From Rhodothermia bacterium (GTDB lineage Bacteria; Bacteroidota; Rhodothermia; Rhodothermales; JAAAOL01): a DNA stretch of 45,592 nucleotides. The notes beneath the pieces were generated by a model that ran no database searches, was not told the origin of the DNA, and saw nothing but the letters and a program-made list of their open reading frames with translations. The position numbers and the translations under genes are program-made. The stretch is from positions 1 to 45,592 of the forward strand of contig JAUIDY010000044.1 in NCBI GenBank assembly GCA_030428385.1. The letters are read 5' to 3'. Positions 9,686 through 40,269 of this stretch are shown here, piece after piece (the stretch's first letter is position 1; every line of letters starts with the position of its first letter).

Positions 9686-12484
9686 ATGCCCGATTTCTCC
9701 CCCGAACGCTGGCAACAGGTGGAAGCCATCCTCGACGTGGTGTTCGACCTGCCTCCGGACGAGCGCAGTGCTTGGCTCGATGCCCACTGCGCCGACGACC
9801 CGACGCTGCGGGCCGACGTGGAAGCCCTGTTGGCAGCCGACAAGGAAGAAGAAGCGTTCCTCGAAGTGCCAGTTGGTGCATTTGCCCCCGCGCTGGTGCA
9901 GGCCGCCGACGTGACGCAGCAAGACCGCACCGATGCCCTCTTGCAAAACCAGGAAGTAGGCCCCTATCGGCTGGTGCGGGCCCTGGGCGAAGGCGGCATG
10001 GGCACCGTGTACCTCGCCGAGCGTGCCGATGGGCTGTTCGAGCAGCAGGTGGCCGTTAAGCTCATCAAGCGCGGCATGGATTCGGAGGCCGTGCGGCGGC
10101 GGTTTGTGGCCGAGCGGCAGATTCTAGCGCGCCTTCAACATCCTCACATCGCCCGGCTGCTGGATGGCGGCCTCACCGACGACGGGCGGTCCTATTTTGT
10201 GATGGAGTACGTCGATGGCGTGCCCATCACCAAGTTCAGCGCTACCCAGGAACTGGGCCTCTCCGCGCGGCTGCGGCTGTTCGAGAAGGTATGCCGCGCC
10301 GTGGAATATGCCCACCGCAACCTTGTGGTCCATCGCGACCTCAAGCCGTCGAACATCCTTGTTACTGCCGACGGCACCGTAAAGCTGCTCGACTTTGGCA
10401 TCGCCAAGGTGCTGGCCGACGACGAAACCCCGCTATTTACCCAGACCGAGACGGGCCTCATGGCGATGACGCCCGAATACGCCGCGCCGGAGCAAGTCAA
10501 GGGTGAGGCTATCACCACGGCTACAGATGTGTATGCCCTGGGCATTGTGCTCTATGAGTTACTCACCGGCACGCGGCCCTATCAGTTCGACCAACGCTCG
10601 CCGACCGAGATTGAGCGGGTGGTATGTGGCACGGCCCCGCCGCGCCCCAGCACCGCCGTGCAGCGCGGCAGTGACACCCTGCCGCCGTTTGCCGACGACC
10701 TGCACCGGAAGCTACGTGGCGACCTCGACACGCTGGTGCTGAAGGCACTACGCAAAGAGCCGGAACGGCGCTATGCCTCGGCCTTTCATCTGCTGGACGA
10801 CCTGCAGCGCTACCGCGACGGGCTCCCCATCCTCGCCCGCCCCGACACCACCGCCTACCGCCTGCGCAAGTTCGTGGGGCGTCACCGTCTCAGCGTAGTT
10901 ATGACGACCGCGCTGGTCTTGCTCAGCCTGGGATTTGCCATCGTTCACACCCAGCGCATCACCGCCGAGCGCGACCGCGCCCAGTTGGAAGCCCAGAAGG
11001 CCGAGGAGGTCAAAAACTTTGTACTGGGCCTCTTTGAAGTCTCCAATCCCAACGAGGCGCGGGGCGACACCATCACCGCGCGTGCGCTGCTGGAGCGGGG
11101 CAGCCAGCGCCTCGCCACCGAACTGCGCAACCAACCCACTGTGCAGGCCGAGATGATGCAGGTGGTGGGCGAGGTGTACCACAAACTGGGCCTCACCGCC
11201 CGCGCCGACACGATGGTACAGGGCGCATTGGCGGTGCTGCAGGAGCATCACGGCCCGAAGCACCCCGCCCTCGTCCCCGTTTGGGTGGCGCTGGCACAGG
11301 TACAGTATCAGGCAGGAACGTATGATGAGGCAGCCGAGGCGGCTACCACGGCTGTTGAGCTTAGCCAGTCCTTGCACGGGGAAAACGCCCCGGAAACCGC
11401 AGCCGCGCTGCAAACCCTCGCCAACATCGAGCGGGCACGCGGCAACCTGGACGCCGCCGAGGCGCTGGCCCGCCAGACCCTCGCGCTGCATAACCAACAC
11501 GCCCACCTCTCCGAGGCATCGCGCGAAGACGCCCTCGCCAACCTGGGCGCGATCCTTTTTGAGCAAGGCCAATACGACGAAGCCGAGCCGGTCTACCGCG
11601 AACGCCTCGCGCTGGCGCAGTCGCTGTATGAGCCGCCGCACACCATGCTCGCCATTGCCCTGAATGACCTGGGACTGTTGCTCAAAGAGCAGGGCCACCT
11701 CGACGACGCGGAGCCTTATTACCGCGACGCCCTCGTGATGCACACCACGTTATTGGGCGACAACCACCAGGAAGTCGCCATCAGTTCGGGCAACCTCGCG
11801 TCATTGCTCCACACCAAAGGCGACCTGGATGCCGCCGAGCCGCTGTACCAAAAGGCCCTTGCGATTTTCCGCACCCACTATGGCGACGACCACCCGTACG
11901 TGGCCACCAGCATCAGCAACCTCGGCACGCTGTATTTCGACCGCCGCGACTTCGCCGACGCTGAGCGTATGTTTCGCGAAGTGCTGGCGCTGGACCAGCG
12001 GTTCCTGGGCGACGACCACCCGTACATCGCAGGCGACCTGACTAAAATTGCAGCAACCTTACACCAACAAGAAGCCCTGACCGAAGCGGCGGCCATGTAC
12101 ACCGACGCCATCGCCCGGTACCGGGCTACGTTCCCCGACGGACACCCGCGCCTCATCCGTCCGCTGCTGGGCCATGCGGACGTATTGATGGACCAGGGGC
12201 ACCTGTCCGAAGCCGAAACGGCCCTGCGTGACCTACACACCTGGGGGCTGGAAAATCTGGACGCCGGGCACTGGCAACGCGCCACCATCGACGCCGCCCT
12301 GGGGCATTGCCTCTCCCGCCAGACCCGCTATGCCGAGGCCGAGCCGTTGCTTCTACAGGCGCATGAGCACCTCCTCCGTGACCGCGGTCCCAGCACCCCC
12401 GAGACCCAAGATGCGGCCCGTCACCTCCACCAGTTGTATATGGCCTGGGGCAAACCCGCCGAGGCCGCCCGGTTCGCCGAATAA
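9686..12484 (+). CDS. Transmembrane Ser/Thr protein kinase with TPR sensor domain
   Basis: 932 residues. An N-terminal ~70-residue helical region (FSPERWQQVEAI, LPPDERSAWLDAHC) leads into a Hanks-type kinase: GEGGMG at 101-106, Lys125, Glu143, HRDLKPSN at 216-223 (Asp218), DFG at 236-238, APE around 267-269. All catalytic residues are present. One membrane helix lies at about 402-421, then a short coiled coil (ITAERDRAQLEAQKAEEV) and a long array of TPRs of the kinesin-light-chain type (ALAQSLYEPPH, LAISNLGTLY-like units) to the C-terminus. The TPR part is on the far side of the membrane and probably senses protein partners. It follows the ECF gene, and the sigma factor is the likely phosphorylation target. 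Confidence 0.93.
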   Translation: MPDFSPERWQQVEAILDVVFDLPPDERSAWLDAHCADDPTLRADVEALLAADKEEEAFLEVPVGAFAPALVQAADVTQQDRTDALLQNQEVGPYRLVRALGEGGMGTVYLAERADGLFEQQVAVKLIKRGMDSEAVRRRFVAERQILARLQHPHIARLLDGGLTDDGRSYFVMEYVDGVPITKFSATQELGLSARLRLFEKVCRAVEYAHRNLVVHRDLKPSNILVTADGTVKLLDFGIAKVLADDETPLFTQTETGLMAMTPEYAAPEQVKGEAITTATDVYALGIVLYELLTGTRPYQFDQRSPTEIERVVCGTAPPRPSTAVQRGSDTLPPFADDLHRKLRGDLDTLVLKALRKEPERRYASAFHLLDDLQRYRDGLPILARPDTTAYRLRKFVGRHRLSVVMTTALVLLSLGFAIVHTQRITAERDRAQLEAQKAEEVKNFVLGLFEVSNPNEARGDTITARALLERGSQRLATELRNQPTVQAEMMQVVGEVYHKLGLTARADTMVQGALAVLQEHHGPKHPALVPVWVALAQVQYQAGTYDEAAEAATTAVELSQSLHGENAPETAAALQTLANIERARGNLDAAEALARQTLALHNQHAHLSEASREDALANLGAILFEQGQYDEAEPVYRERLALAQSLYEPPHTMLAIALNDLGLLLKEQGHLDDAEPYYRDALVMHTTLLGDNHQEVAISSGNLASLLHTKGDLDAAEPLYQKALAIFRTHYGDDHPYVATSISNLGTLYFDRRDFADAERMFREVLALDQRFLGDDHPYIAGDLTKIAATLHQQEALTEAAAMYTDAIARYRATFPDGHPRLIRPLLGHADVLMDQGHLSEAETALRDLHTWGLENLDAGHWQRATIDAALGHCLSRQTRYAEAEPLLLQAHEHLLRDRGPSTPETQDAARHLHQLYMAWGKPAEAARFAE

Positions 12485-12714: not shown

Positions 12715-14163
12715 TCACGGCGAGGGGCCTAGCAGGGGAAACGTCACCCGTTCTTCGTAGCCATCATCAAAACGAAGCACAAACGTCGCCTCGTGCGACT
12801 GCGCCGTGGCAAAGGTAGCCGCCGGCACCACCACCCACACCTCGGTACGCTTCATCTCCTGCGGCTCCAGCGCAATCGGCGAGACGCCCACAATGCGCAG
12901 TTGCGTCCCGGCAGGCTCCTCAGCTTCGATGGTGAACGCAGACGTCTGCGCCGTCTGGTTGCGCACGCGGAAGCGCAAGCGGTTGGCCACCGTGCCATCG
13001 GGCAGTTCGGTGAACGGCTCTCCAACGACGCGGCCCACGTTCACGTCATACGCCTCACGCGTGGTGACGGCGATGGTAAAAGCTGTCGTGAGCAGAATCA
13101 GCAAGACGGAGTAAATGACAGTGCGGGGGCGGAAGCGGCGCGTCTTCAGGTTGTCCAGTTCGTTCTCCGACGTGTAGCGGATCAGCCCACGCGGTTTGCC
13201 GATGTTGTCCATGATCACATCGCACGCGTCGATGCACTGCGTGCAGGCGATACATTCCATCTGCAACCCGTCGCGGATGTCGATGCCGGTGGGACAGGTG
13301 CGCACACACGCGAAGCAGTCGATGCAGTCGCCCTGGGCAGGCAGTAGCCCGGCGGCCTCTTGCTCCATCTTTTTCTTGCTGCGCTTCGCCCGGGGCTCGC
13401 CCCGGTTGGGATCATACGACACGATGAGCGAGTCGGGGTCGAGCAGCACCGACTGGATGCGGGCATAAGGGCAGGTGATGGTGCACATCTGCTCCCGGAA
13501 GTAGCCGAAGTTGAACAGCATCAGCCCCGTGGTGAAGATGGCGGTGATAAAGAAGCCCCAGTGGTCCGTCGGCGAGCCGCGCATCCATTCCATCAATGCA
13601 TCCCAGCCTACGAAATACGCCACAAACGTATGCGCCACAAAAAACGACAGGACGATATAAATGCCCAGCTTGGCTCCTTTCCGCCACACTTTGTCCCAGT
13701 TCCACGGTCCTTCATTCCGACGCTTGCGCTTGTGCTCGGGCCCCTCGATCCACCGCTCAATCGGGCGGTAGACGAACTCCAGGTACACCGTCTGCGGACA
13801 CGCCCAGCCACACCACACGCGCCCCAGCAACGCCGTGAGCAGCAAGATACTCACGCCTACCGCCAGCGCCAGCAGCAACAGCAAAAACGTGTCGGTGGGA
13901 TAAAACGTTGCGCCAAAAAGGGCGAACTCGCGGTGCACAAAGTCGAGCAGCACGGCAGGCTTGCCGCCGATTTTGACCCACGGCAGCCCCACAAAAAACA
14001 CCAGCAATACCCAGGCGACGATCAGGCGGGGCCGGTAGAACCGCCCTTTACTCAGCGTGGGGTACACCCACTTCCGCTTGCCTTCTTTGGTTAGCGTGGT
14101 AAGCACTTCCTCGGGCGACTCAAGAACCCCAACGTCGCCTTCATCGATAAACTGCCGAGCCAT
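12715..14163 (-). CDS. ccoG: Cytochrome c oxidase accessory protein CcoG
   Basis: 482 residues. CcoG (FixG/RdxA) is a membrane ferredoxin-like protein that reduces copper for delivery to the cbb3 oxidase binuclear centre. Membrane helices lie at roughly 50-70, 95-115, 165-185 and 200-215. An NqrB/NapH-like Cys motif (CTITCPYARIQSVLLDPDSL) is followed by two 4Fe-4S motifs, CIDCFACVRTCP and CIACTQCIDACD. The C-terminal Ig-like IG domain (VRNQTAQTSAFTIEAEEPAG) is present. ATG at 14163 is chosen because the preceding sequence is intergenic and the protein then begins MARQFIDEGDVG. It lies downstream of the ccoNOQP terminator in the same direction, so it has its own promoter or depends on readthrough. 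Confidence 0.93.
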   Translation of the reverse strand: MARQFIDEGDVGVLESPEEVLTTLTKEGKRKWVYPTLSKGRFYRPRLIVAWVLLVFFVGLPWVKIGGKPAVLLDFVHREFALFGATFYPTDTFLLLLLALAVGVSILLLTALLGRVWCGWACPQTVYLEFVYRPIERWIEGPEHKRKRRNEGPWNWDKVWRKGAKLGIYIVLSFFVAHTFVAYFVGWDALMEWMRGSPTDHWGFFITAIFTTGLMLFNFGYFREQMCTITCPYARIQSVLLDPDSLIVSYDPNRGEPRAKRSKKKMEQEAAGLLPAQGDCIDCFACVRTCPTGIDIRDGLQMECIACTQCIDACDVIMDNIGKPRGLIRYTSENELDNLKTRRFRPRTVIYSVLLILLTTAFTIAVTTREAYDVNVGRVVGEPFTELPDGTVANRLRFRVRNQTAQTSAFTIEAEEPAGTQLRIVGVSPIALEPQEMKRTEVWVVVPAATFATAQSHEATFVLRFDDGYEERVTFPLLGPSP

Positions 14164-14326: not shown

Positions 14327-14377
14327 ATCAGGGAAAAATACAGCGCTGCGTAGGTTAAAGCCCTACATGCGATGGTA

Positions 14378-14968
14378 TTATTCCACCAACTCGCCTTGTG
14401 GATCTTTCGGATTCGGCGGATTGGTGCCTTCCAGCGAGCGCACGAAGGCAACGAGTTGGCCGCGTTCTTCGGGGGAGAGGATGTCGCCCCACGGCGTCAT
14501 GCCTTTGTCCAGCACCCCGTTGGTGATCACCTCGTAGATGCCCACGTTGCTGGCATCGTGGATCCAATAGTTGTCGGTGAGGTTAGGCCCGATGACGCCT
14601 TCTCCGGCCTGCCCGTGGCACACCGCGCAGTTGGCGGTATAAAGAACGCCTCCGGCCGTCACCTGTGCGGCATCGCCCACATAGGTTTCCAGCGAGGCCT
14701 CATCTACTTGAAAGACCGGATTGGCCGCCGCATAGTTTGCCCGGATGGTTTCGAGTTCTTCCTGGCTGGCGGCAAGGTCGTCTTCGTACGTGTCGACAAA
14801 ACCCATGAAGGTGATGCCCACATAATACACGACGGCAAAAACGACGCTGCCGATGAAGATCCATACCCACCAGCCGGGCATCGGGTTGTCGTACTCTTTG
14901 ATCCCGTCATATTTATGGCCCTTAATGATGCGGCCGTGCGGCGACTCGGGCGTAGCAGGTGTACTCAT
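14378..14968 (-). CDS. ccoP: cbb3-type oxidase subunit III, monoheme CcoP
   Basis: 196 residues. The N-terminal cbb3 domain (GHKYDGIKEYDNPMPGWWVW, then one membrane helix at about 33-55) is that of CcoP. A single cytochrome c domain follows with CAVCH as the heme c site and a Met ligand probably in KGMTPWGDILS. Proteobacterial CcoP carries two hemes in about 300 residues; this shorter one-heme form occurs in Bacteroidota-type cbb3 oxidases. It overlaps ccoQ by 4 bp (ATGA), showing coupled translation. It is the last gene of the oxidase operon. Confidence 0.92.
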   Translation of the reverse strand: MSTPATPESPHGRIIKGHKYDGIKEYDNPMPGWWVWIFIGSVVFAVVYYVGITFMGFVDTYEDDLAASQEELETIRANYAAANPVFQVDEASLETYVGDAAQVTAGGVLYTANCAVCHGQAGEGVIGPNLTDNYWIHDASNVGIYEVITNGVLDKGMTPWGDILSPEERGQLVAFVRSLEGTNPPNPKDPQGELVE

Positions 14969-15150
14969 AGTTCCAGGGGCGAGTGTGGGAGGAGATCATC
15001 GTCCAGCGGCATGTTTTTGGCCCGCTCGCGTTCGCCCTTCGAGAGCGTAAACGCGTAAATGACGATGAGCAAAAAGGCGATGGTAAACGCGATGACGCCG
15101 ACTTCGGCCAGATGGCCGGTTTCCAGCGCTCGCACGGCTTCTTTCATCAT
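14965..15150 (-). CDS. ccoQ: cbb3-type oxidase subunit CcoQ-like
   Basis: 61 residues with one membrane helix (GVIAFTIAFLLIVIYAFTL, about 18-36) followed by a basic/acidic cytoplasmic stretch (SKGERERAKNMPLDDD), the layout of CcoQ/FixQ. Identification rests on size, topology and position between ccoO and ccoP. Overlaps both neighbours by 4 bp. Confidence 0.8.
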   Translation of the reverse strand: MMKEAVRALETGHLAEVGVIAFTIAFLLIVIYAFTLSKGERERAKNMPLDDDLLPHSPLEL

Positions 15151-15899
15151 GGCGTCGTCGGGGTTTCAGCGGATTCGTTCTGTGACAGCGGAGCCGCCGG
15201 GCTCCCCACATCCGCGTTGCTGGTCGTGCGCAGGTCGGTGCCAAGGCGTTGCAGGAACGCCACCAGCGCGGTGATCTCTTTGTCGGCGAGGTGCGCCGGG
15301 CCGCCCTGTGCTTCTACTTCGAGGGCAATAATCGCTGCCTGCTCCCGGGCGAGTTCGACAGCCTGTTCGATCTCAGCGTCGGTGTAGGGTACCCCTACGC
15401 GCCGCAAGGCCCGCAGCCGCGCAGGCAGGTTGTCAATGTCCATCGGACGACGGAGCAGCCAGTCGTACGGCGGCATGATGGAGCGCGGGCTCGTGGAGCG
15501 CGGGTTTTCCATGTGGCGAACGTGCCACAGGTGTGGATATTTACCACCCACACGTTGCAGGTCGGGCCCCGTCCGTTTGGAGCCCCACAAGAACGGATGC
15601 TCATAGGTCGTCTCGCCCGCCTTGGTAAACTCGCCGTAGCGTTCCAGTTCGTGGCGGAACGGGCGCACCATCTGCGAGTGGCAACTCACGCAGCCTTCTT
15701 TGATGTAGATGTCACGCCCCGCCACTTCCAGCGGCGTAAACGGCGTCACCGTCTCAATCGTCTCGATGTTGCCCTGCACCAGGAAGGCAGGAATAAACTC
15801 GACGGCGGTGCCGACCAGGATGGCGGCGACGGTCAGCACCGTAAAAACCAGGGGCCAGCCTTCCAGCCGTCGGTGCATGGTTTCTTGGTGGTCACTCAT
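15147..15899 (-). CDS. ccoO: cbb3-type oxidase monoheme subunit CcoO
   Basis: 250 residues. One N-terminal membrane helix (about 16-38) anchors a periplasmic cytochrome c domain with the heme site CVSCH inside GCVSCHSQMVRPFRHELERY, diagnostic for CcoO/FixO. A Met ligand lies in SIMPPYDWLL. It passes electrons from CcoP to the CcoN binuclear centre. A Ser/Thr/Pro-rich tail after about residue 225 is an extension that the core fold does not need. It starts 48 bp after ccoN and overlaps ccoQ by 4 bp. Confidence 0.95.
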   Translation of the reverse strand: MSDHQETMHRRLEGWPLVFTVLTVAAILVGTAVEFIPAFLVQGNIETIETVTPFTPLEVAGRDIYIKEGCVSCHSQMVRPFRHELERYGEFTKAGETTYEHPFLWGSKRTGPDLQRVGGKYPHLWHVRHMENPRSTSPRSIMPPYDWLLRRPMDIDNLPARLRALRRVGVPYTDAEIEQAVELAREQAAIIALEVEAQGGPAHLADKEITALVAFLQRLGTDLRTTSNADVGSPAAPLSQNESAETPTTP

Positions 15900-15947: not shown

Positions 15948-17447
15948 TCACGCGGCCAATTCCTTTGCGGGTGTCGCTACGCGGCGCGGCGCGGCAAACG
16001 TCGGGTCGGGCAGGTCTTTGGGAGCGCTGCGGATGGTGTACCACATATTAACCATCAGCATCACCACCCCGGCAAGGTACATCAGCCCGCCGATGAGGCG
16101 CACCCAGTACATCGGAATGATCTGCACCACCGTTTCCATGAAGTCGGGGTAGAGGAGCCGCCCTGCGTCGTCGAATGCCCGCCACATCAGCCCCTGTGTG
16201 ATGCCTGACACGTACATCGAGAGCACGTAGAGCAACATGCCGATGGTGCCGACCCAGAAGTGCGCCGTGGCAAGTTTGGGGCTCCACAGTTCGGTCCGCC
16301 ACAGCTTGGGCAGCAACCAGTAGATCATCCCAAACGTCATGAAGCCGTTCCAGCCCAGCGCCCCGCTGTGCACGTGCGCGATGTTCCAGTCCGTGTAGTG
16401 GCTCAATGCGTTGACGGTCTTAACCGAGAGCATGGGCCCCTCGAAGGTGCTCATCCCGTAGAACGTAATGCCGACGACAAACATCTTGAGCACCACCGAG
16501 TCGCGGAGCTTGTGCCACGCGCCACGCAGCGTAAAGAGCCCGTTGATCATGCCGCCCCACGACGGCATCCACAGCATCACGGAGAAGATCATCCCCAGCG
16601 TGGCAGCCCATTCGGGCACGGCGGTATAGTTCAGGTGGTGTGGTCCCGCCCAGATGTAGATAAAGACAAGGCTCCAGAAGTGGACGATGGACAACCGGTA
16701 TGAGAACACGGGACGTGACGCCGCCTTCGGCAAGAAATAGTACATCAGCCCCAGGAACGGCGTCGTGAGGAAAAAGGCCACGGCGTTATGCCCGTACCAC
16801 CACTGCACCAGCGCGTCCTGCACGCCGCCATAGATGGGGTAGCCGTGCAGCCAGTTGTACGGCACGGCAAGGCTGTTGCCGATGTGCAGCACGGCGACCG
16901 TTACGATGGTGGCGATGTAGAACCAGAGGGCGACATACATATGCCGCTCGCGCCGCTTCCACAGCGTCCCGAAGAAGTTAACCGCAAAAATCACCCAGAT
17001 GACCGCGATCAGGACGTCGATCGGCCATTCGAGTTCGGCGTATTCCTTCGAGGTGGTGATGCCCAGCGGCAGGGTGATTGCGGCGGAGACGATGATGGTT
17101 TGCCAGCCCCAGAAGTGGATGCGGCTCATCACGTCGCTGAACATACGGGCCTTGCACAGGCGCTGCGTGGAGTAGTAGATGGCCGCGAAGATGGCGTTGC
17201 CCGCGAAGGCGAAGATCACCGCGTTGGTGTGCAGCGGGCGCAGCCGCCCGAACGTGAGGTATTCGCCGAGGTTGGCGGGCCAGAACGGAAGCTGAAGCGC
17301 CAAGAGCGCCCCAACGAACATACCGATGAAGCCCCACAGGACCGTCGCCAGCACAAACATGCGAACGATTTGCTCGTCGTAGCTGAACACTTCCAGCGAC
17401 GAGCGCGGGACGGCAGCAGCTTCGGGAGATCGGGATTGCACTTCCAT
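15948..17447 (-). CDS. ccoN: cbb3-type oxidase catalytic subunit CcoN
   Basis: 499 residues, about 12 membrane helices. The heme/copper ligands are visible: RPLHTNAVIFAFAGN (low-spin heme His), WWYGHNAVAFFLTTPFLG (Cu-B His), WAGPHHLNYTAVPEW (paired His) and WNIAHVHSGALGWNG (high- and low-spin heme His). This is the oxygen-reducing, proton-pumping subunit of a high-affinity oxidase used at low oxygen. ATG at 17447 gives MEVQSRSPEAAAVPRSSLEV before the first helix; the further open frame upstream crosses the regulatory palindromes and is not likely translated. CcoN is separate, not fused to CcoO. Its promoter faces that of the oxygen-sensor-like kinase gene. Confidence 0.96.
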   Translation of the reverse strand: MEVQSRSPEAAAVPRSSLEVFSYDEQIVRMFVLATVLWGFIGMFVGALLALQLPFWPANLGEYLTFGRLRPLHTNAVIFAFAGNAIFAAIYYSTQRLCKARMFSDVMSRIHFWGWQTIIVSAAITLPLGITTSKEYAELEWPIDVLIAVIWVIFAVNFFGTLWKRRERHMYVALWFYIATIVTVAVLHIGNSLAVPYNWLHGYPIYGGVQDALVQWWYGHNAVAFFLTTPFLGLMYYFLPKAASRPVFSYRLSIVHFWSLVFIYIWAGPHHLNYTAVPEWAATLGMIFSVMLWMPSWGGMINGLFTLRGAWHKLRDSVVLKMFVVGITFYGMSTFEGPMLSVKTVNALSHYTDWNIAHVHSGALGWNGFMTFGMIYWLLPKLWRTELWSPKLATAHFWVGTIGMLLYVLSMYVSGITQGLMWRAFDDAGRLLYPDFMETVVQIIPMYWVRLIGGLMYLAGVVMLMVNMWYTIRSAPKDLPDPTFAAPRRVATPAKELAA

Positions 17448-17484
17448 AGACAATATGGTGCAGCAGGTGGGAAAGGAAAGGAAA

Positions 17485-17561
17485 CGAAGCGCGGCGCTTC
17501 GCGAACAAGCACCAAGAAACGCGGACGCCTTGCATCTTTTTGCAAGCCAGCCCCTAGGGGC
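17485..17561. promoter_or_regulatory. Palindrome cluster between ccoN and the FixL-like kinase gene
   Basis: Three inverted repeats within 77 bp upstream of ccoN: CGAAGCGC-G-GCGCTTCG at 17485-17501 (8-bp perfect arms), CTTGCA-N6-TGCAAG at 17529-17546, and GCCCCTAGGGGC at 17550-17561 (12-bp perfect palindrome). A fourth, GGGGATTCCCC, is at 17665-17675. No FNR-type TTGAT-N4-ATCAA box was found. The divergent arrangement and the genes on both sides suggest operators for oxygen-dependent control of the oxidase, but which protein binds is unknown. Confidence 0.45.
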
Positions 17562-17756
17562 CAAGTGAGCAAAGGCGCACGACAGGCGTGGGGGATTTCC
17601 TTACATTCGCAAAGAGCGGGCAGGCCGAAACCCACAGAACCTGACTCAGCAACCCATGTATGGCGGGGATTCCCCTACAGCGCTCGTAAGGGATACCTCT
17701 GAATAACGTGCGCCCTCTTTTTTCAAATTGTCACCTGCATCACCTGACGATGGCTT

Positions 17757-19319
17757 ATGCCGAATCCCCACGACACATCGCCCATTTCCGCCCATGCGAC
17801 GGCCCTTCAACGGGTAACCCAGCACGCCTTGGCCCATGTGCCAGTAGCGGCGTTGCACGAGGAAGCCGCTCGCGCCGCCCGGCAGGTGCTTGGGGCCGAT
17901 GGGTGTGGCTGTTTCGAAAGGATGACGGGCGACCAGTTCGTGGTACGGGCGGCCCAAGGCTGGACGCCGCCTGTGGAACCGATGCACATCCCCGAGGCGG
18001 CCTCCTTGCTCGGCACCGTCCTCACGACGCAGCAAGCAATCCGCAGCGATGACCTTACCACCGATCCGCGCTTTTCGGACATCGGATTGCCGGGCTCCCA
18101 TGATGTCCACAGCGTACTCGCCGTTGCCGTACCCGGAAAAAAGACGCCGCGTGGCGCCCTGATTGCTTTCTGCAAACAGACAAAGGCCTTTGACGACGCG
18201 GACCTGCTCTTTTTGCATGCCCTCGCCAGCATCCTTGCCAACGTGATGGAGTGGCGCTCAGCTGAGGCAGCGCGGCAGGTGAGTGAAGCCCAGGTCCATG
18301 CTATTCTCGACACCACCGTCGATGGCATCATTTCCATTGATGCCAAAGGGCTAATCATCGCCTTTAATAAAGCCGCGGAGCGCATCTTTGGCTACGAGGC
18401 CGCCGAGGTCATCGGGCAGAAGATCGACATCCTGATGCCCGATCCGTACCGCAGCGAACACGATGGCTATCTGGAATCGTATCATACCACCGGGCGGCGC
18501 AAAATCATCGGCATCGGGCGCGAGGTAACCGGAAAACGAAAGGACGACTCGACGTTTCCCATGTACCTCGGCGTGAGCGAAGTCAACCTCCCTGACCAGC
18601 TTATTTTCACTGGGCTGGTGCGCGACATCACCGAGCAGCGCCGCCTGGAAAAAGAAGTGCTGCGGGTGACCGAAGAAGAACGCCGCCGCATTGGTCAGGA
18701 TCTGCACGACGGCCTTGGGCAGATGCTCACCGGCACCGGTCTCATCGCCTCCAACGTGGCCCGGCGTCTGAAACGACAGGAGGTTGCCGGGGCCGATGAA
18801 GTGGCGGAAGTTGCTGAGATGGTAAAAGACGCCGATCAGTATGCCCGCAGCCTCGCCCGGGGCCTGGTGCCCGTAGAGGTGGAGCAAGGTGGCCTGGAAG
18901 GCGCACTGGAGCGGCTCGCCCGTAATGCGCAGCGCCTCTTCGGCATTGCCTGCGCGTTTCACTTGCGCGGCACTGATTCGGTGACGGACACCACCATCGC
19001 TATGCACCTGTACCGCATTGCCCAGGAATCGGTATCCAACGCCGTGCGACATGGCAAGGCCTCTGCTGTCACTATTAGTCTGTACCACACCGACACCTAT
19101 ATCCGCCTGCGGGTGGAAGACAACGGCGAAGGCTTCAAGAGCATCTCGCTCGATGGCCCGCCGGAGTCGTACAGCGACCTGCACGGGATGGGCGTGCGCA
19201 TCATGCACTACCGCGCCCGCATCATCGGTGCCACACTCGATATCCAGGGCACGCTGGGCACAGGAACCACCGTCACCTGCACCTTGCGCCGCCAGAATCC
19301 CTCCCCCGAAACCGTTTAA
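17757..19319 (+). CDS. GAF-PAS sensor histidine kinase with a FixL-type heme-PAS domain
   Basis: 520 residues, soluble. GAF domain about 15-165; PAS about 175-295; HisKA_3 dimerisation domain with His317 in RRRIGQDLHDGLGQ; HATPase with N-box QESVSNAVRH, G1 EDNGEGF and G2 LHGMGVRIMHY. The PAS core MPDPYRSEHDGYL ... RKIIGIGREVTGKRKDDSTF aligns residue for residue with FixL: His235 corresponds to the proximal heme ligand His200 of Bradyrhizobium FixL, Arg255 to Arg220 (the oxygen switch), Ile250 to Ile215 and Leu271 to Leu236. Arg206 is replaced by Ser241 and His214 by Lys249. Heme and oxygen sensing are therefore predicted. It is divergent from the cbb3 operon and 21 bp upstream of a response regulator. 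Confidence 0.9.
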   Translation: MPNPHDTSPISAHATALQRVTQHALAHVPVAALHEEAARAARQVLGADGCGCFERMTGDQFVVRAAQGWTPPVEPMHIPEAASLLGTVLTTQQAIRSDDLTTDPRFSDIGLPGSHDVHSVLAVAVPGKKTPRGALIAFCKQTKAFDDADLLFLHALASILANVMEWRSAEAARQVSEAQVHAILDTTVDGIISIDAKGLIIAFNKAAERIFGYEAAEVIGQKIDILMPDPYRSEHDGYLESYHTTGRRKIIGIGREVTGKRKDDSTFPMYLGVSEVNLPDQLIFTGLVRDITEQRRLEKEVLRVTEEERRRIGQDLHDGLGQMLTGTGLIASNVARRLKRQEVAGADEVAEVAEMVKDADQYARSLARGLVPVEVEQGGLEGALERLARNAQRLFGIACAFHLRGTDSVTDTTIAMHLYRIAQESVSNAVRHGKASAVTISLYHTDTYIRLRVEDNGEGFKSISLDGPPESYSDLHGMGVRIMHYRARIIGATLDIQGTLGTGTTVTCTLRRQNPSPETV

Positions 19320-19340
19320 ACGTCATATTCGCGTACTGCC

Positions 19341-19991
19341 ATGACCAACATTCTTCTTGTCGATGACCACCCGCTGATGCGCAAGGGGCTTGCGATGACC
19401 ATCAACGAAGATCCCGACCTCAACGTCACCTGCCAGGCCGACAGCGCCGAGGATGCGCTTGACCTGCTCCATGCCAACGAGCTAGACCTCGTCATCATCG
19501 ACATCTCGCTGCCCGGCATGAGCGGGCTCGAACTTGTGAAGCACCTGCACGCGCTGCATCCCAACCTGCCCACGCTCATTGTCTCGCGGCACGACGAAGC
19601 GCTGTATGCCGAACGGGCGTTGCGCGCAGGTGCGCGCGGCTATGTGATGAAGTTGGAAGCAGGCAACGTGATCGTCGACGCCGTGCGTCGGGTGCTACGT
19701 GGCGGGATCTATGTGAGCGAAGAAATCAACGACCGGCTGCTGATGGGTATGGCCACAGGCCACAGCCCCCTCAACGAGTCGCCGATGGACCTGCTCAGCG
19801 ACCGCGAATTGGAGGTGTTCGAACTCACCGGCAGTGGTCTTTCTACCCGAGAAATTTCGGAGCGGCTGCACCTGTCGGTGAAAACCGTGGAGTCGTACCG
19901 CGCCCGCATCAAGACCAAACTCAACCTGAACACCGCCGCCGAACTGATGCAGCACGCGGTGCAATGGGTAGAAGGGGAAGGACGGGGATAA
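19341..19991 (+). CDS. NarL/FixJ-type response regulator
   Basis: 216 residues. Receiver domain with Asp8/Asp9, phosphorylation site Asp54 (VIIDISLPGMSG) and Lys104; LuxR-type helix-turn-helix at about 150-210 (LSDRELEVFELTGSGLSTRE, then KTVESYRARIKTKL). It begins 21 bp after the kinase and is its obvious partner. Candidate targets are the cbb3 operon across the shared upstream region and the universal stress gene downstream (inference). The 262-bp gap after it (19992-20253) shows no gene. Confidence 0.94.
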   Translation: MTNILLVDDHPLMRKGLAMTINEDPDLNVTCQADSAEDALDLLHANELDLVIIDISLPGMSGLELVKHLHALHPNLPTLIVSRHDEALYAERALRAGARGYVMKLEAGNVIVDAVRRVLRGGIYVSEEINDRLLMGMATGHSPLNESPMDLLSDRELEVFELTGSGLSTREISERLHLSVKTVESYRARIKTKLNLNTAAELMQHAVQWVEGEGRG

Positions 19992-20253
19992 GGAAAGGGT
20001 GTGTGGGAGACCATGAATCAATGACGCCGATGACATGGGCAAAGCCCGTAAATGACGCGAGCAAAGCGTGTTCATAACGCACAGTTCATAGCGTGTCCAT
20101 CGTCCCCCATGGCCTGACGGGAGACTTCCCGCCCCCACACACGCCGTCACTTTTCCCCTACACCCCCTCTACACGCTTCACCGTCACTACACAATCGAGG
20201 CGCTAGCGAAGTTAGCACCGGATGCATCTTCATTCGGGCTGGAAGTTTTTGTC

Positions 20254-21132
20254 ATGGCTATTTCTCCTTCTCTCACCTATCAGCGCATTGTCTTGCCGAC
20301 GGACCTGTCCGCCTGCGCGGAGCGGGCGCTGCCACGTGCGCTGGCGTTGGCTGAGCGAGCAGGTGCCGACGTTCACCTGCTGTATGTGGTCGCGCCACTT
20401 TCCTCTTCGGAGGCGGTGGCCCCCACCCTCAACCCCAAAGAATTTGGACAGTGGCGCAGGGAACGAGCGCGCTCCCGCCTCGAAGGACTGCGGCTGGCTT
20501 ATCGCTACAGCCTCAACAACCGCCATGCCGTGACCATGCACACCAGCATCGTCACCCACGCCGACCCAAGCGCCGGCATCCTGTCGTATGCACGCAAGCA
20601 CAACGCCGACCTGATCGTGATGGGCAGCCACGGCTGGAGCGCCCACTTTGGCCAAGGACTGGGCAGCGTCACCCAGCAGGTCTTGACCAACGCCCCCTGC
20701 CCCGTCATGACGGTTCCCGTCCATCGCACCACGGCGGGGCTTATTCGCCGTGTATTGCTTCCGGTGGACAACCTTTCGAACATGCAAGCCCTGTATGGTG
20801 CGGATTACCTGGCGCATCTGTTCCAAAGCCGCCTCTTGTTGCTCTCCACACCGACTCAGCCCGGCGATGAATCAGCAAGACCAACCCCGGTCCAGCAATG
20901 GATCGCCGCCCAGCCACTGCAAAGTACCAAGGTAGAATACCTAGCGCTTCCGCCACGCACCAAGGCCGACATGCCTCTCCTCAGCGACCTTGAAGATACG
21001 GATGTGGTCGTCGTCCCTGATACACAAGCGGCCCTTCGGCTGGCCCGCACGGGCACCTGCTCCGTCGCCACGCTGGGCCACACCCCGGTTGTCTTGGCAA
21101 AGAAGAACCCCCTCGCCATGAGCGCGGCATAG
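20254..21132 (+). CDS. Tandem universal stress protein (UspA family)
   Basis: 292 residues with two Usp domains. The first (about 1-150) begins YQRIVLPTDLSACAERALPR and has the nucleotide-binding signature GSHGWSAHFGQGLGSVTQQV, so it probably binds ATP. The second (about 158-285, RRVLLPVDNLSNMQALYG ... TPVVLAKKNP) lacks the glycine signature and is degenerate. Such tandem Usp proteins are often induced by low oxygen or energy limitation. It lies 262 bp after the two-component pair on the same strand, and membership of the same regulon is plausible but unproven. Confidence 0.88.
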   Translation: MAISPSLTYQRIVLPTDLSACAERALPRALALAERAGADVHLLYVVAPLSSSEAVAPTLNPKEFGQWRRERARSRLEGLRLAYRYSLNNRHAVTMHTSIVTHADPSAGILSYARKHNADLIVMGSHGWSAHFGQGLGSVTQQVLTNAPCPVMTVPVHRTTAGLIRRVLLPVDNLSNMQALYGADYLAHLFQSRLLLLSTPTQPGDESARPTPVQQWIAAQPLQSTKVEYLALPPRTKADMPLLSDLEDTDVVVVPDTQAALRLARTGTCSVATLGHTPVVLAKKNPLAMSAA

Positions 21133-34633: not shown

Positions 34634-34763
34634 CGATGAACCACCTTTCTCTCCTGCTGAATGACGCCTATTTTTGAGTACCGTGGGCACCCCGATCCCT
34701 TCGGCACGTTCTTCGTGTATGCATCCTTCGACCGTGTTCTTGCAAAACCTGATCTACCCCACT

Positions 34764-35339
34764 ATGCGTAGCTCTTTCCGCCCTTTCGCCTTTTTTGTCC
34801 TCGGCGTACTGATGGTGCTGCCGACCCAGGCACAAACCACCTACACCTTCCTTCCCGACAGCGAACTCTGGATCGAGGGCACCTCTAACAAAAGCGACTG
34901 GACCGTCCATGCCACGGAAATGGAAGGCGCTGTGCAAATGAGCGGGGCCGACGCCATCGAAAGCGCCACTCTGACGGTGCCCAGTCAGCAGATCGTGAGC
35001 AATAAAAGCACCATCATGGACCGGCTGATGCACAAGACACTGATGGTGGACCAGCACGCCAACATTACCTACGAACTAACCCACGCCAACGTGGAGCCCG
35101 GCGACGGTGGCACCTTCCAGGCGTTCACCCGAGGCAACCTCACCATCGCCGAGACGACCAACGAGATTGAAGTGGTGGTCACCGGCGAGGCCATGGACGA
35201 CGGGCGCTACCGCTTCACGGGCAGCCACCCGCTCAAGATGACCGACTACGGCCTCACCACCCCCGTGGCTATGTTCGGCGCGCTCCGCACCGCCGACGAC
35301 ACCGTGGTGCACTTCAACTTCGTAGTGGCGAGTGAATAA
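34764..35339 (+). CDS. YceI-family exported protein
   Basis: 191 residues. Signal peptide RSSFRPFAFFVLGVLMVLPT with cleavage after AQA, then a YceI lipocalin-like barrel: YTFLPDSELWIEGTSNKSDW, a middle VDQHANITYELTH strand, and FTGSHPLKMTDYGLTTPVAM, the conserved YceI end. YceI proteins bind isoprenoid or amphiphilic lipids in the periplasm. ATG at 34764 is chosen for the signal peptide; upstream in-frame ATG and GTG codons would only add a non-signal extension. Confidence 0.9.
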   Translation: MRSSFRPFAFFVLGVLMVLPTQAQTTYTFLPDSELWIEGTSNKSDWTVHATEMEGAVQMSGADAIESATLTVPSQQIVSNKSTIMDRLMHKTLMVDQHANITYELTHANVEPGDGGTFQAFTRGNLTIAETTNEIEVVVTGEAMDDGRYRFTGSHPLKMTDYGLTTPVAMFGALRTADDTVVHFNFVVASE

Positions 35340-37363: not shown

Positions 37364-37467
37364 GGGTTTTGTCGGGTACAAAGGTTTTTGGGTAATTTGT
37401 AGCGACCTGCCGCCGAGGCTTCTCCTTCCGTATCTTGAGCCTGACTCCCACCCGCCTACGCTCCTTC

Positions 37468-40269
37468 ATGCCCCACTTCTCACCCGAACGCTGGCAGCGC
37501 GTAGAGGCCTTGCTCGACGAAGTCCTCGACCTCCCGCCCGACGAGCGGCGGGCGTGGCTCGATGTACACTGTGGCGACGACGAGGCCTTGCGGGCCGATG
37601 TGGAAGCCCTGCTGGAGGCCGATGAAGCCGAGGGCGACTTTCTCAGCGCCTCGGCCACCACCTACGCCGATGCCCTCATCAGCGCATCGGGCAACGCGCC
37701 CCTGAAACCAGAAGAGATGGCGCTGGACACCCGCGTCGGGCCATACCGGCTGGTGGCATTGCTGGGGCATGGCGGCATGGCCGCGGTCTACCTCGCCGAG
37801 CGCGATGATGGGCTCTTCGAGCAGCAGGTGGCCGTTAAGCTGATCAAGCGGGGCATGGACTCCGAAGCGGTACGCCGCCGCTTCCTCGCCGAGCGGCAGA
37901 TCCTGGCACGGCTGCAACACCCGCACATCGCCCGCCTCCTCGATGGCGGCCTTGCCGACGATGGGCAATCTTACTTCGTGATGGACTATGTGCCCGGCAC
38001 ACCCATCACCGATTACAGCACCGAGCACGCCCTCGACCTCACCGCCCGGCTGCACCTGTTCGAGGATGTTTGCCGCGCCGTCGAATACGCCCACCGCAAC
38101 CTCGTCGTCCACCGCGACCTGAAGCCGAGCAATATCCTGGTGACGGACGACGGGCGGGTTAAGCTGCTCGACTTTGGCATTGCGAAGATGCTGGCCGAAG
38201 ACGAAGCGCCGATCCCCGCCCAAACCGTGACGGGCATCGTAGCGATGACGCCTGAATATGCCTCCCCCGAACAAGTGCGCGGCGAGGCCATCACCACCGC
38301 CACCGACGTGTATGCCCTCGGCGTGGTGCTCTACGAGTTAATGACCAACGAGCGGCCCTACTACTTCGAGTCACGGTCGCCCACGGAGATCGAGCGGGTG
38401 ATCTGTGACACCGAGCCGCGCCGTCCCAGCACTGCCGTCTTGCAACGCACCGAGGCCGCCACCGAAAACGCCGCCGTGCTGCACCGCAAGCTGCGCGGCG
38501 ACCTCGACAACATTGTGTTAAAAGCATTGCGCAAGGAGCCAGAGCGGCGCTATGCCTCGGCGGCGCACCTGCTGGATGACCTCCAGCGTTACCGCGACGG
38601 CCTGCCTGTGCTGGCCCGCCCCGACACCGTGGGCTATCGGCTGCGCAAGTTCGTGCAGCGCCACCGGATGGGCGTAGCGATGGCCGCCGCGTTTTTGATG
38701 CTGAGTTTCGGCTTTGCCCTGTTCTACACCCTGCGCGTCACCGCCGAGCGCGACCGGGCGCAGGCCGAGGCCGAACGCGCCCGCGAAACCCGCGACCTGC
38801 TCATCAGCATGTTTGGCGCGGCCGACCCCGACGCCGGGCGCGGTGACACCCTCACCGCCCGCGAACTGCTGGCGCTCGGCACGACGCAGATCGAAGCCGA
38901 ACTCGCCAACCAGCCTGACCTCCAGGCCGAGATGCTGGCTGCCATCGGCGAGGTATACCGTAAGCTGGGCACCTATGATGATGCCCTCCCGCTGCTGGAA
39001 CGCGCCCTTGCACAAGCACGCGAGTTGCATGGCCCGGTGCATGCGGATGTCGCGACTGCCCACAGCCGCCTCGGCGAAGTGCTCTACGACATGGGCGACT
39101 ACGAACGCGCCGAGACCCACCTGCGCGATGCCCTGCGCCTGCGCCGCCAGCTTTTCGGCGAGAGGCATGCGGCGGTCGCCCAGAGCCTCGACCAAGTGGC
39201 GGCGCTGGTGTATGAACAAGGTAGCTTTGACGAAGCCGAACGCTTGTACCGGGAGGCGCTGACGCGGCGGCACACGTTGTTTGGTCCCAATCACCTCGAC
39301 GTCGCCGAAACACAGAACAACCTCGGCATCCTGCTTACCGAACTCGCCAAGTACGACGAGGCCGAGACCGTGCTGCGCGAGGCGCTCGCGGTGCGCGAAG
39401 CGCAACTCGGCACCACCCACAGCGCCGTTGCCGAAACCATCCACAATCTGGGGTTTCTCTACTGGGACCGCGGGCTCTATGAAGAAGCCGAACCTTTTTT
39501 CCGACGTTCGTTGGACATTGCGCACACGTTGTATGGCGACGAGCACCCCAGCCTCGCCATCGATTTGAACAACCTGTCGCTGCTGCTGCGCGACATGGGC
39601 GATTATGACGAGGCCGAGTCCGTCGGGCGGCAGGCGCTGGCGATGCAGCAAAAATTCCTCGGCCCCACCCACCGCGATGTCTCGACGAGCCTCTATAACC
39701 TCGCGGACCTGCTGATGCTAAAAGGAGCGTATACCGACGCCGAGCCGCTGCTGCTCGAATCGCTTCAAATCGACCTGGAACGCTACGGCGACGCGCATCC
39801 CTACATCGGCATGGCACGCACGATGTACACCAATCTGCTGCTCGAACGCGGCGCACTGGACGAAGCATCGACGGAAATTCAGCAAGCCCTCGCCATTTTT
39901 GAGGCCGCCTACCCCGACGGGCACTACCGCATCGCTGACGCCCGATTGGCGAGGGGACGTATTGTCTTGCAACGCGGGCAGCCCAATGCGGCAGAGCCGG
40001 ACCTGCGGGAAGCCCTCGCCCTGCTGGCTACTTTTTCGCCCGACGACGACATCCGCACGCTCAACGCGCAACACGCCCTGGGGCAATGCCTGACGGCCCA
40101 GCAACGCTTCGACGAAGCAGAGACGTTGTTGCGGGAAAGCCATGCCACCGCTGAAACCAACCTCGGCCCCACGCACCCTGTCACCCAGCAACTCCGCGCA
40201 GCGCTGGCCGAACTCTATCAAGCCTGGAGCCGCCCGGATGAGGCGGCACGGTATACGCCTTCCATTTAG
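37468..40269 (+). CDS. Transmembrane Ser/Thr protein kinase with TPR domain (second paralogue)
   Basis: 933 residues, collinear with the first kinase. Begins MPHFSPERWQRVEALLDEVL. Kinase residues: G100-H-G102-G-M-A105 (third loop Gly is Ala), Lys124, HRDLKPSN with Asp217, DFG with Asp235, and TPEYASPEQ. One membrane helix (VAMAAAFLMLSFGFALFY, about 400), then a coiled coil (RVTAERDRAQAEAERARETR) and many TPRs ending LAELYQAWSRPDEAARYTPS. The kinase half is much more similar to the first copy than the TPR half. ATG at 37468 is chosen by alignment with that copy. No ECF sigma gene is adjacent; its partner is unknown. It is divergent from the TerB-like gene. Confidence 0.93.
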   Translation: MPHFSPERWQRVEALLDEVLDLPPDERRAWLDVHCGDDEALRADVEALLEADEAEGDFLSASATTYADALISASGNAPLKPEEMALDTRVGPYRLVALLGHGGMAAVYLAERDDGLFEQQVAVKLIKRGMDSEAVRRRFLAERQILARLQHPHIARLLDGGLADDGQSYFVMDYVPGTPITDYSTEHALDLTARLHLFEDVCRAVEYAHRNLVVHRDLKPSNILVTDDGRVKLLDFGIAKMLAEDEAPIPAQTVTGIVAMTPEYASPEQVRGEAITTATDVYALGVVLYELMTNERPYYFESRSPTEIERVICDTEPRRPSTAVLQRTEAATENAAVLHRKLRGDLDNIVLKALRKEPERRYASAAHLLDDLQRYRDGLPVLARPDTVGYRLRKFVQRHRMGVAMAAAFLMLSFGFALFYTLRVTAERDRAQAEAERARETRDLLISMFGAADPDAGRGDTLTARELLALGTTQIEAELANQPDLQAEMLAAIGEVYRKLGTYDDALPLLERALAQARELHGPVHADVATAHSRLGEVLYDMGDYERAETHLRDALRLRRQLFGERHAAVAQSLDQVAALVYEQGSFDEAERLYREALTRRHTLFGPNHLDVAETQNNLGILLTELAKYDEAETVLREALAVREAQLGTTHSAVAETIHNLGFLYWDRGLYEEAEPFFRRSLDIAHTLYGDEHPSLAIDLNNLSLLLRDMGDYDEAESVGRQALAMQQKFLGPTHRDVSTSLYNLADLLMLKGAYTDAEPLLLESLQIDLERYGDAHPYIGMARTMYTNLLLERGALDEASTEIQQALAIFEAAYPDGHYRIADARLARGRIVLQRGQPNAAEPDLREALALLATFSPDDDIRTLNAQHALGQCLTAQQRFDEAETLLRESHATAETNLGPTHPVTQQLRAALAELYQAWSRPDEAARYTPSI

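Follow-up and report, generated by a model that had tools for sequence, protein, structure and literature searches.

A predicted FixL-type haem-PAS oxygen switch beside the cbb3 oxidase genes of a Rhodothermia bacterium

The stretch of DNA analysed here (the window) comprises positions 1 to 45,592 of contig JAUIDY010000044.1 from a Rhodothermia bacterium, and encodes a sensor histidine kinase and a response regulator lying back to back with the cbb3 oxidase genes ccoNOQP. With a probability of about 0.7, this pair is a FixL-type haem-PAS two-component oxygen switch that would drive a DosR-like low-oxygen survival regulon as well as the high-affinity oxidase. A low-oxygen circuit acting on the cco genes had been proposed in a first-pass annotation made from the letters of the window, and it gains support as a prediction: the haem ligands are conserved, the fold is matched, the gene order is kept in seven families and the promoters share a palindrome. 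That cco is controlled by a HisKA_3/NarL-type kinase bearing a FixL-type haem PAS is thus a well supported prediction; two elements are new relative to the earlier reading, namely the palindrome and a regulon of DosR-like content. The features of the sensor module are as follows.

17757..19319, plus strand: sensor histidine kinase, 520 amino acids, GAF-PAS-HisKA_3-HATPase_c, the last at residues 416-513 (Pfam)
17850..18251, plus strand: GAF domain, residues 32-165 (Pfam; conservation weak among orthologues)
18291..18632, plus strand: FixL-type PAS domain, residues 179-292 (phmmer to FixL chains; superposition of a model on Bradyrhizobium FixL, BjFixL)
18459..18461, plus strand: codon of the proximal haem ligand His235 (Fa-helix position, aligned to BjFixL His200)
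18519..18521, plus strand: codon of the switch Arg255 (aligned to BjFixL Arg220)
18678..18875, plus strand: HisKA_3 dimerisation/phosphoacceptor domain, residues 308-373 (Pfam PF07730)
18705-18707, plus strand: codon of His317, the likely phosphorylated residue of HisKA_3 (invariant in the alignment)
19341..19991, plus strand: NarL/DosR-type response regulator, 216 amino acids, Response_reg and GerE helix-turn-helix (Pfam; Asp54 conserved)
20254..21132, plus strand: universal stress protein (Usp), 292 amino acids (PF00582, E 1.8e-33; second domain unrecognised by Pfam)

FixL chains are the closest sequences to the PAS domain in the PDB by phmmer (E 1.8e-35 to 3e-31, including 1.8e-35 for 8js5, 6.8e-34 for 1d06 and 1.4e-33 for 1dp6), with DosP far behind at about 1e-13. 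The alignment to FixL is ungapped throughout the pocket, identity to BjFixL is 47-53% across the aligned PAS, and His235, Arg255, Ile250 and Leu271 fall on BjFixL His200, Arg220, Ile215 and Leu236, just as first read from the sequence. An AlphaFold (AF2) model of the kinase, built from 43 sequences, has a mean predicted local distance difference test score (pLDDT) of 86.7; its PAS domain superposes on numerous structures of the BjFixL haem domain at 0.9-1.2 Å with template modelling (TM) scores of 0.93-0.95 by target, and so has the fold of the FixL haem domain that the earlier annotation had led one to expect. Furthermore, both His235 and Arg255 are invariant in the alignment of 43 relatives, which spans several phyla, bearing out the expected conservation of the haem ligand among orthologues. 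In a larger set of relatives nearly all keep the two residues and a few outliers lack one of them. One such outlier, a Balneolales kinase (L083, genome G081), has lost the haem histidine and carries an insertion at the same place; it is possible that haem sensing has been lost there. The PAS domain of the window is accordingly predicted, by analogy with FixL, to bind haem b and to be inhibited by O2.

The rest of the kinase is not that of FixL. It scores 154 bits against the NCBIfam FixL equivalog NF041777, whose cut-off is 850, and no membrane domain was found in the protein encoded at 17757-19319. The suggestion that the GAF domain replaces the membrane helices of FixL stands only in part: a GAF domain is present, but the contrast fits the FixL of S. 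meliloti, which has membrane helices, and does not fit BjFixL, which is soluble. Haem held in the GAF domain, as in DosS, was considered and rejected, the GAF domains of the orthologues having no invariant histidine. Named relatives, among them Roseithermus, Salinibacter and Salinivenus, put the window within Rhodothermales. The kinase has orthologues in 72 of the 114 genomes of this order and also in Balneolales; more distant relatives are found in Verrucomicrobiota, Planctomycetota, Kiritimatiellota and Gammaproteobacteria.

The regulator, which adjoins the kinase at nearly every Rhodothermia locus examined, has mycobacterial DevR/DosR as its best PDB match (3c3w, E 7.7e-25); DevR and NarL both rank above FixJ, and the FixJ model NF006900 gives 86 bits against a cut-off of 255. 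Its recognition helix, SVKTVESYRARIK, is nearly invariant in Rhodothermales and differs in Verrucomicrobia, Planctomycetes and Gammaproteobacteria. The Usp gene that follows had been described as tandem; a Usp is certainly there, but its tandem nature rests on the length of 292 amino acids, Pfam recognising the first domain only.

The oxidase genes lie on the minus strand, divergent from the kinase-regulator genes, with ccoG next.

15948..17447, minus strand: ccoN, cbb3 oxidase subunit I (COX1, E 2.7e-121; TIGR00780 above cut-off)
15147..15899, minus strand: ccoO (PF02433 FixO, E 1.2e-88)
14965..15150, minus strand: ccoQ-like, 61 amino acids (reading frame between ccoO and ccoP)
14378..14968, minus strand: ccoP-like, one CxxCH motif (FixP_N and Cytochrome_CBB3; single CAVCH in the translation)
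12715..14163, minus strand: ccoG, open frame reaching 14451 (Fer4_18 and FixG_C)

CcoN, CcoO and CcoP are thus all present, and the Pfam domains and gene coordinates agree with the arrangement first described, a HisKA_3/NarL-type kinase back to back with ccoNOQP and followed by its regulator. The CcoP of the window has a single CxxCH haem motif where two are usual.

The gene order extends well beyond this genome. Kinase and ccoN lie within about 12 kb of each other in 15 of the 37 Rhodothermales genomes that have both, in seven families, and 8 of those 15 show the same back-to-back arrangement as the window. Were placement random, linkage would be expected in about 0.2 of the 37 genomes (our own estimate, from a span of 24 kb in about 4 Mb, uncorrected for shared ancestry). 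The two genes also co-occur above expectation (Fisher p 5e-6, without phylogenetic correction). In 35 genomes the kinase is present and ccoN was undetected, and the kinase must therefore have other targets. Usp genes flank the kinase-regulator pair in many genomes and occupy the gap between kinase and ccoN in one family; an Acg-family oxidoreductase (NF047509, above the curated cut-off) lies near the kinase in other relatives.

A common DNA site joins these genes. The consensus GTAGGGG-N3-CCCCTAC was derived by reading the 300 bp 5' of ccoN in 27 Rhodothermales genomes; 22 of the 27 match it at 11/14 or better compared to 0.7 in dinucleotide shuffles, and 17 at 12/14 or better compared to 0.075. 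Other spacers or the inverted orientation reach at most 9, the signal being seen only for a spacer of 3, and ccoN promoters carry the palindrome irrespective of whether the kinase is adjacent. Since the consensus came from the ccoN promoters themselves, independent gene sets were tested. Of the Acg genes, picked by protein family only and with promoters unused in deriving the consensus (2 of the loci overlap cco/kinase loci), 12 of 20 carry it in the 300 bp preceding the gene, where 0.28 would be expected. In Balneolales, the regions 5' of the kinase and 3' of the regulator have it in 7 of 28 (0.2 expected), two of these sites preceding HSP20 genes. The 36 kinase loci and 12 cco loci examined contain 41 sites at 12/14 or better; the majority stand immediately 5' of genes for the kinase, ccoN, ccoG, ccoH/I, Usp, Acg or YceI-type proteins. 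In one family (f2) the perfect sites seen genome-wide are located at the Usp-Acg cluster, a long way from the kinase; in genome G050 of this family 624 kb separate the kinase from the perfect site, which lies between a Usp cluster and Acg. Near the kinases of Verrucomicrobia, Planctomycetes and Gammaproteobacteria the palindrome is not enriched and none was found, and the recognition helix of the regulator, nearly invariant where the palindrome occurs, is different where it is absent.

The window itself has three copies, none assigned a strand.

17662..17678: palindrome, GTAGGGGAATCCCCGCC on the minus strand, 12/14, about 79 bp before the kinase start and about 215 bp before ccoN
17588..17604: weaker copy, 11/14, in the same divergent region
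14350..14366: weak copy, 11/14, preceding ccoG by about 187 bp

The first of these is one of only 10 such two-mismatch sites in the 6.19-Mb genome, the other nine having no obvious common theme. Three-mismatch matches number 4 in the window against 1.63 expected, which is not significant alone, and stronger palindromes precede ccoG in two relatives (G337 and G309); the case that the window copies are functional sites would rest on their position and on the relatives. The best palindrome of this genome, at 13/14, is elsewhere (L225, C78:15822-15838), beside another NarL-type regulator gene and a 467-amino-acid open frame, and not near cco.

In the proposed circuit, PAS residues 179-292 would hold haem through His235, and O2-bound haem, acting via Arg255, would keep the HisKA_3 kinase off as in FixL. 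A drop in O2 would lead the kinase to phosphorylate the NarL/DosR-type regulator at Asp54, and a dimer of the regulator would then bind GTAGGGG-N3-CCCCTAC, as comparative genomics suggests. The effect is expected to be activation rather than repression, given the low-oxygen role of cbb3 oxidases; since the site is in the divergent promoter region, both ccoNOQP and the kinase-regulator operon itself would be switched on. The same site appears to mark Usp, Acg-type nitroreductase, HSP20, ccoG and ccoHI genes across Rhodothermales and Balneolales, so that the output would be a DosR-like low-oxygen survival regulon plus the high-affinity oxidase.

Several points weigh against this circuit. Haem binding, oxygen response, phosphotransfer and DNA binding are all predictions from sequence. 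Two propionate contacts are unlike those of BjFixL, Ser241 standing for Arg206 and Lys249 for His214, as was correctly noted at the outset; the substitution at Lys249 is mild because the FixL of S. meliloti itself carries arginine at that position. Kinase and cco are not closely linked in 22 of the 37 genomes that contain the two. The figure of 22/27 comes from the same ccoN promoters that supplied the consensus, the Acg and Balneolales tests being independent of it. The palindrome is absent from the ccoN upstream regions of Balneolales and Bacteroidetes (22 loci), although these are only a weak control because those ccoN genes form a different lineage. A kinase-free family (f8) has 5 one-mismatch sites in 16 genomes, and an effect of GC content is visible in the control pattern; raw site counts therefore fail to separate the groups. 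In the window, the best palindrome is imperfect at 12/14, the region upstream of Usp has no full palindrome (a half site, CCCCTAC, near 20160 only), and no Acg gene was found in the window's own genome at the threshold used.

It is conceivable, though unlikely, that another regulator reads the palindrome, be it an unrelated factor or the orphan DosR-type paralogue that some families have next to ccoN, and that the haem kinase is only a neighbour. Consistent with this, in five further genomes (G135, G235, G085, G239, G304) a paralogous regulator is divergent from ccoN and the kinase is elsewhere, and the one-mismatch palindromes of f8 occur in genomes that have no kinase. On the other hand, palindromes stand directly 5' of the kinase operon in several genomes and around the kinase-regulator loci of Balneolales, and the recognition helix of the orphan regulators is nearly that of the cognate one; the orphans would therefore read the same palindrome, and the same kinase may signal to them. 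Loci with an orphan DosR-type paralogue divergent from ccoN and no related kinase nearby are L067, L068, L069, L070 and L223.

Slightly less probable is that the PAS domain keeps the FixL fold but holds no haem, or senses another ligand (nitric oxide, carbon monoxide or redox state), so that the signal of the circuit is not O2. About 40% of the FixL/DosP cluster of PAS domains lacks the histidine (PMC10468136), and position 241 in the Rhodothermia family is mostly serine or asparagine, not arginine; yet the invariance of His235 and Arg255, the low-oxygen type of the targets and a model within about 1 Å of BjFixL all argue for an oxygen-sensing haem. That the gene order is accidental and the kinase controls stress genes only is very unlikely: the persistence of the kinase without a detected ccoN and the 22 unlinked genomes would fit, but linkage far exceeds the chance estimate and ccoN promoters bear the palindrome with or without an adjacent kinase.

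A similar association is seen in Gammaproteobacteria. At seven loci (L185, L188, L189, L190, L198, L201, L183) a PAS-HisKA_3 kinase and a NarL-type regulator, the pair retaining the haem histidine and arginine, follow cco genes in the order (ccoNOP-)ccoG, a DsbD_2 gene, kinase, regulator (ccoH was checked in one locus); Usp comes after the pair in 7/7 and HSP20 in 5/7. This is apparently a parallel low-oxygen cluster. These kinases fall with Planctomycete sequences in the tree, apart from the Rhodothermia clade (96% support in the Shimodaira-Hasegawa-like approximate likelihood ratio test, SH-aLRT); since the two cco-linked clades stand apart, the cco linkage probably arose twice. Occurrence outside the Proteobacteria, which had been put forward as distinguishing, is thus not so: the same pair is found in Gammaproteobacteria, and more than 9700 histidine-bearing PAS domains of the FixL/DosP cluster have been catalogued across bacteria (PMC10468136), so that a FixL-type PAS beyond the Proteobacteria is not new in itself. 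The idea of independent assembly survives as regards the chassis of the kinase, and probably its linkage to cco as well, but not for the PAS domain, which is homologous to that of FixL.

Among known systems, rhizobial FixL/FixJ shares the haem-PAS with the same histidine, arginine and fold, and the tie to cbb3 oxidase control. It differs in that the kinase here is HisKA_3 and not HisKA, has an N-terminal GAF domain and works with a regulator nearer DosR/NarL than FixJ; a common site on the target genes would also take the place of the FixK relay. DosS/DosT-DosR (DevRS) is alike in its HisKA_3 kinase with GAF and its NarL-type regulator, DosR being the nearest solved relative of ours; its Usp and Acg-family targets have predicted counterparts in relatives of the window's organism. 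Here, however, haem is predicted in a FixL-type PAS rather than in GAF, the regulon would include a cbb3 oxidase, and the site differs from the DosR box. In relatives of the window's organism, the predicted targets match the core of the DosR regulon, with sites at Acg promoters (12/20, as above) and at Usp; the window's genome has no Acg, and its own Usp only the half site. Acg and two Usps are the core common to three mycobacterial DosR regulons (PMC11876180). NreB/NreC of staphylococci likewise pairs a cytoplasmic PAS-HisKA_3 kinase with a NarL-type regulator. Its palindrome, TAGGGN4CCCTA, is similar to that of Rhodothermales, but the NreB PAS binds a 4Fe-4S cluster through cysteines, whereas the haem histidine is conserved in the kinase described here. 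The NmpRSTU pathway of Myxococcus xanthus, which works through a haem sensor kinase, governs genes for oxygen use at low O2, those of a cbb3 oxidase among them (PMC11841059); unlike the present pair, it has a globin-coupled sensor, an NtrC-type regulator and a phosphorelay. The predicted circuit resembles FixL at its input and DosR at its output and is in neither equivalog family, because the kinase type, the regulator type and the curated scores set it outside FixL/FixJ, and the lack of a haem-GAF outside DosS.

Some other genes should be mentioned. A conserved protein of about 425 amino acids with no Pfam match lies near the kinase in six genomes (L098 10832-12103; L088, L094, L210, L220), and at L098 a perfect palindrome stands 179 bp 5' of its gene. 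A YceI-like protein is encoded in the window at 34674-35339 (plus strand); in relatives (L089, L210, L292) such proteins occur near the kinase or just 3' of a palindrome, the latter in L089 and L292. The window also encodes two serine/threonine kinases that resemble each other and carry long TPR arrays; they lie at 9686-12484 and 37435-40269, separated by about 25 kb, both on the plus strand.

No description of such an oxygen-control circuit in Rhodothermota or Balneolota was found in the literature searched. The circuit, as predicted, is a new variant among haem-based oxygen-sensing two-component systems. On balance it is also probable that it represents a class-wide low-oxygen regulon of Rhodothermia, in which a FixL-type haem sensor and a DosR-like regulator acting at GTAGGGG-N3-CCCCTAC would join cbb3 respiration to the mycobacterial Usp/Acg/HSP20 dormancy set, the parallel Gammaproteobacterial cluster having arisen separately. 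For Rhodothermota and Balneolota this provides a predicted circuit of oxygen control, complete with a defined site on the DNA and a list of targets. Furthermore, these results suggest that the Usp/Acg/HSP20 low-oxygen survival set can be controlled by haem sensors of quite distinct types, a GAF domain in mycobacteria and a FixL-type PAS here; sensor and output modules therefore appear to swap freely, with the output staying recognisable.

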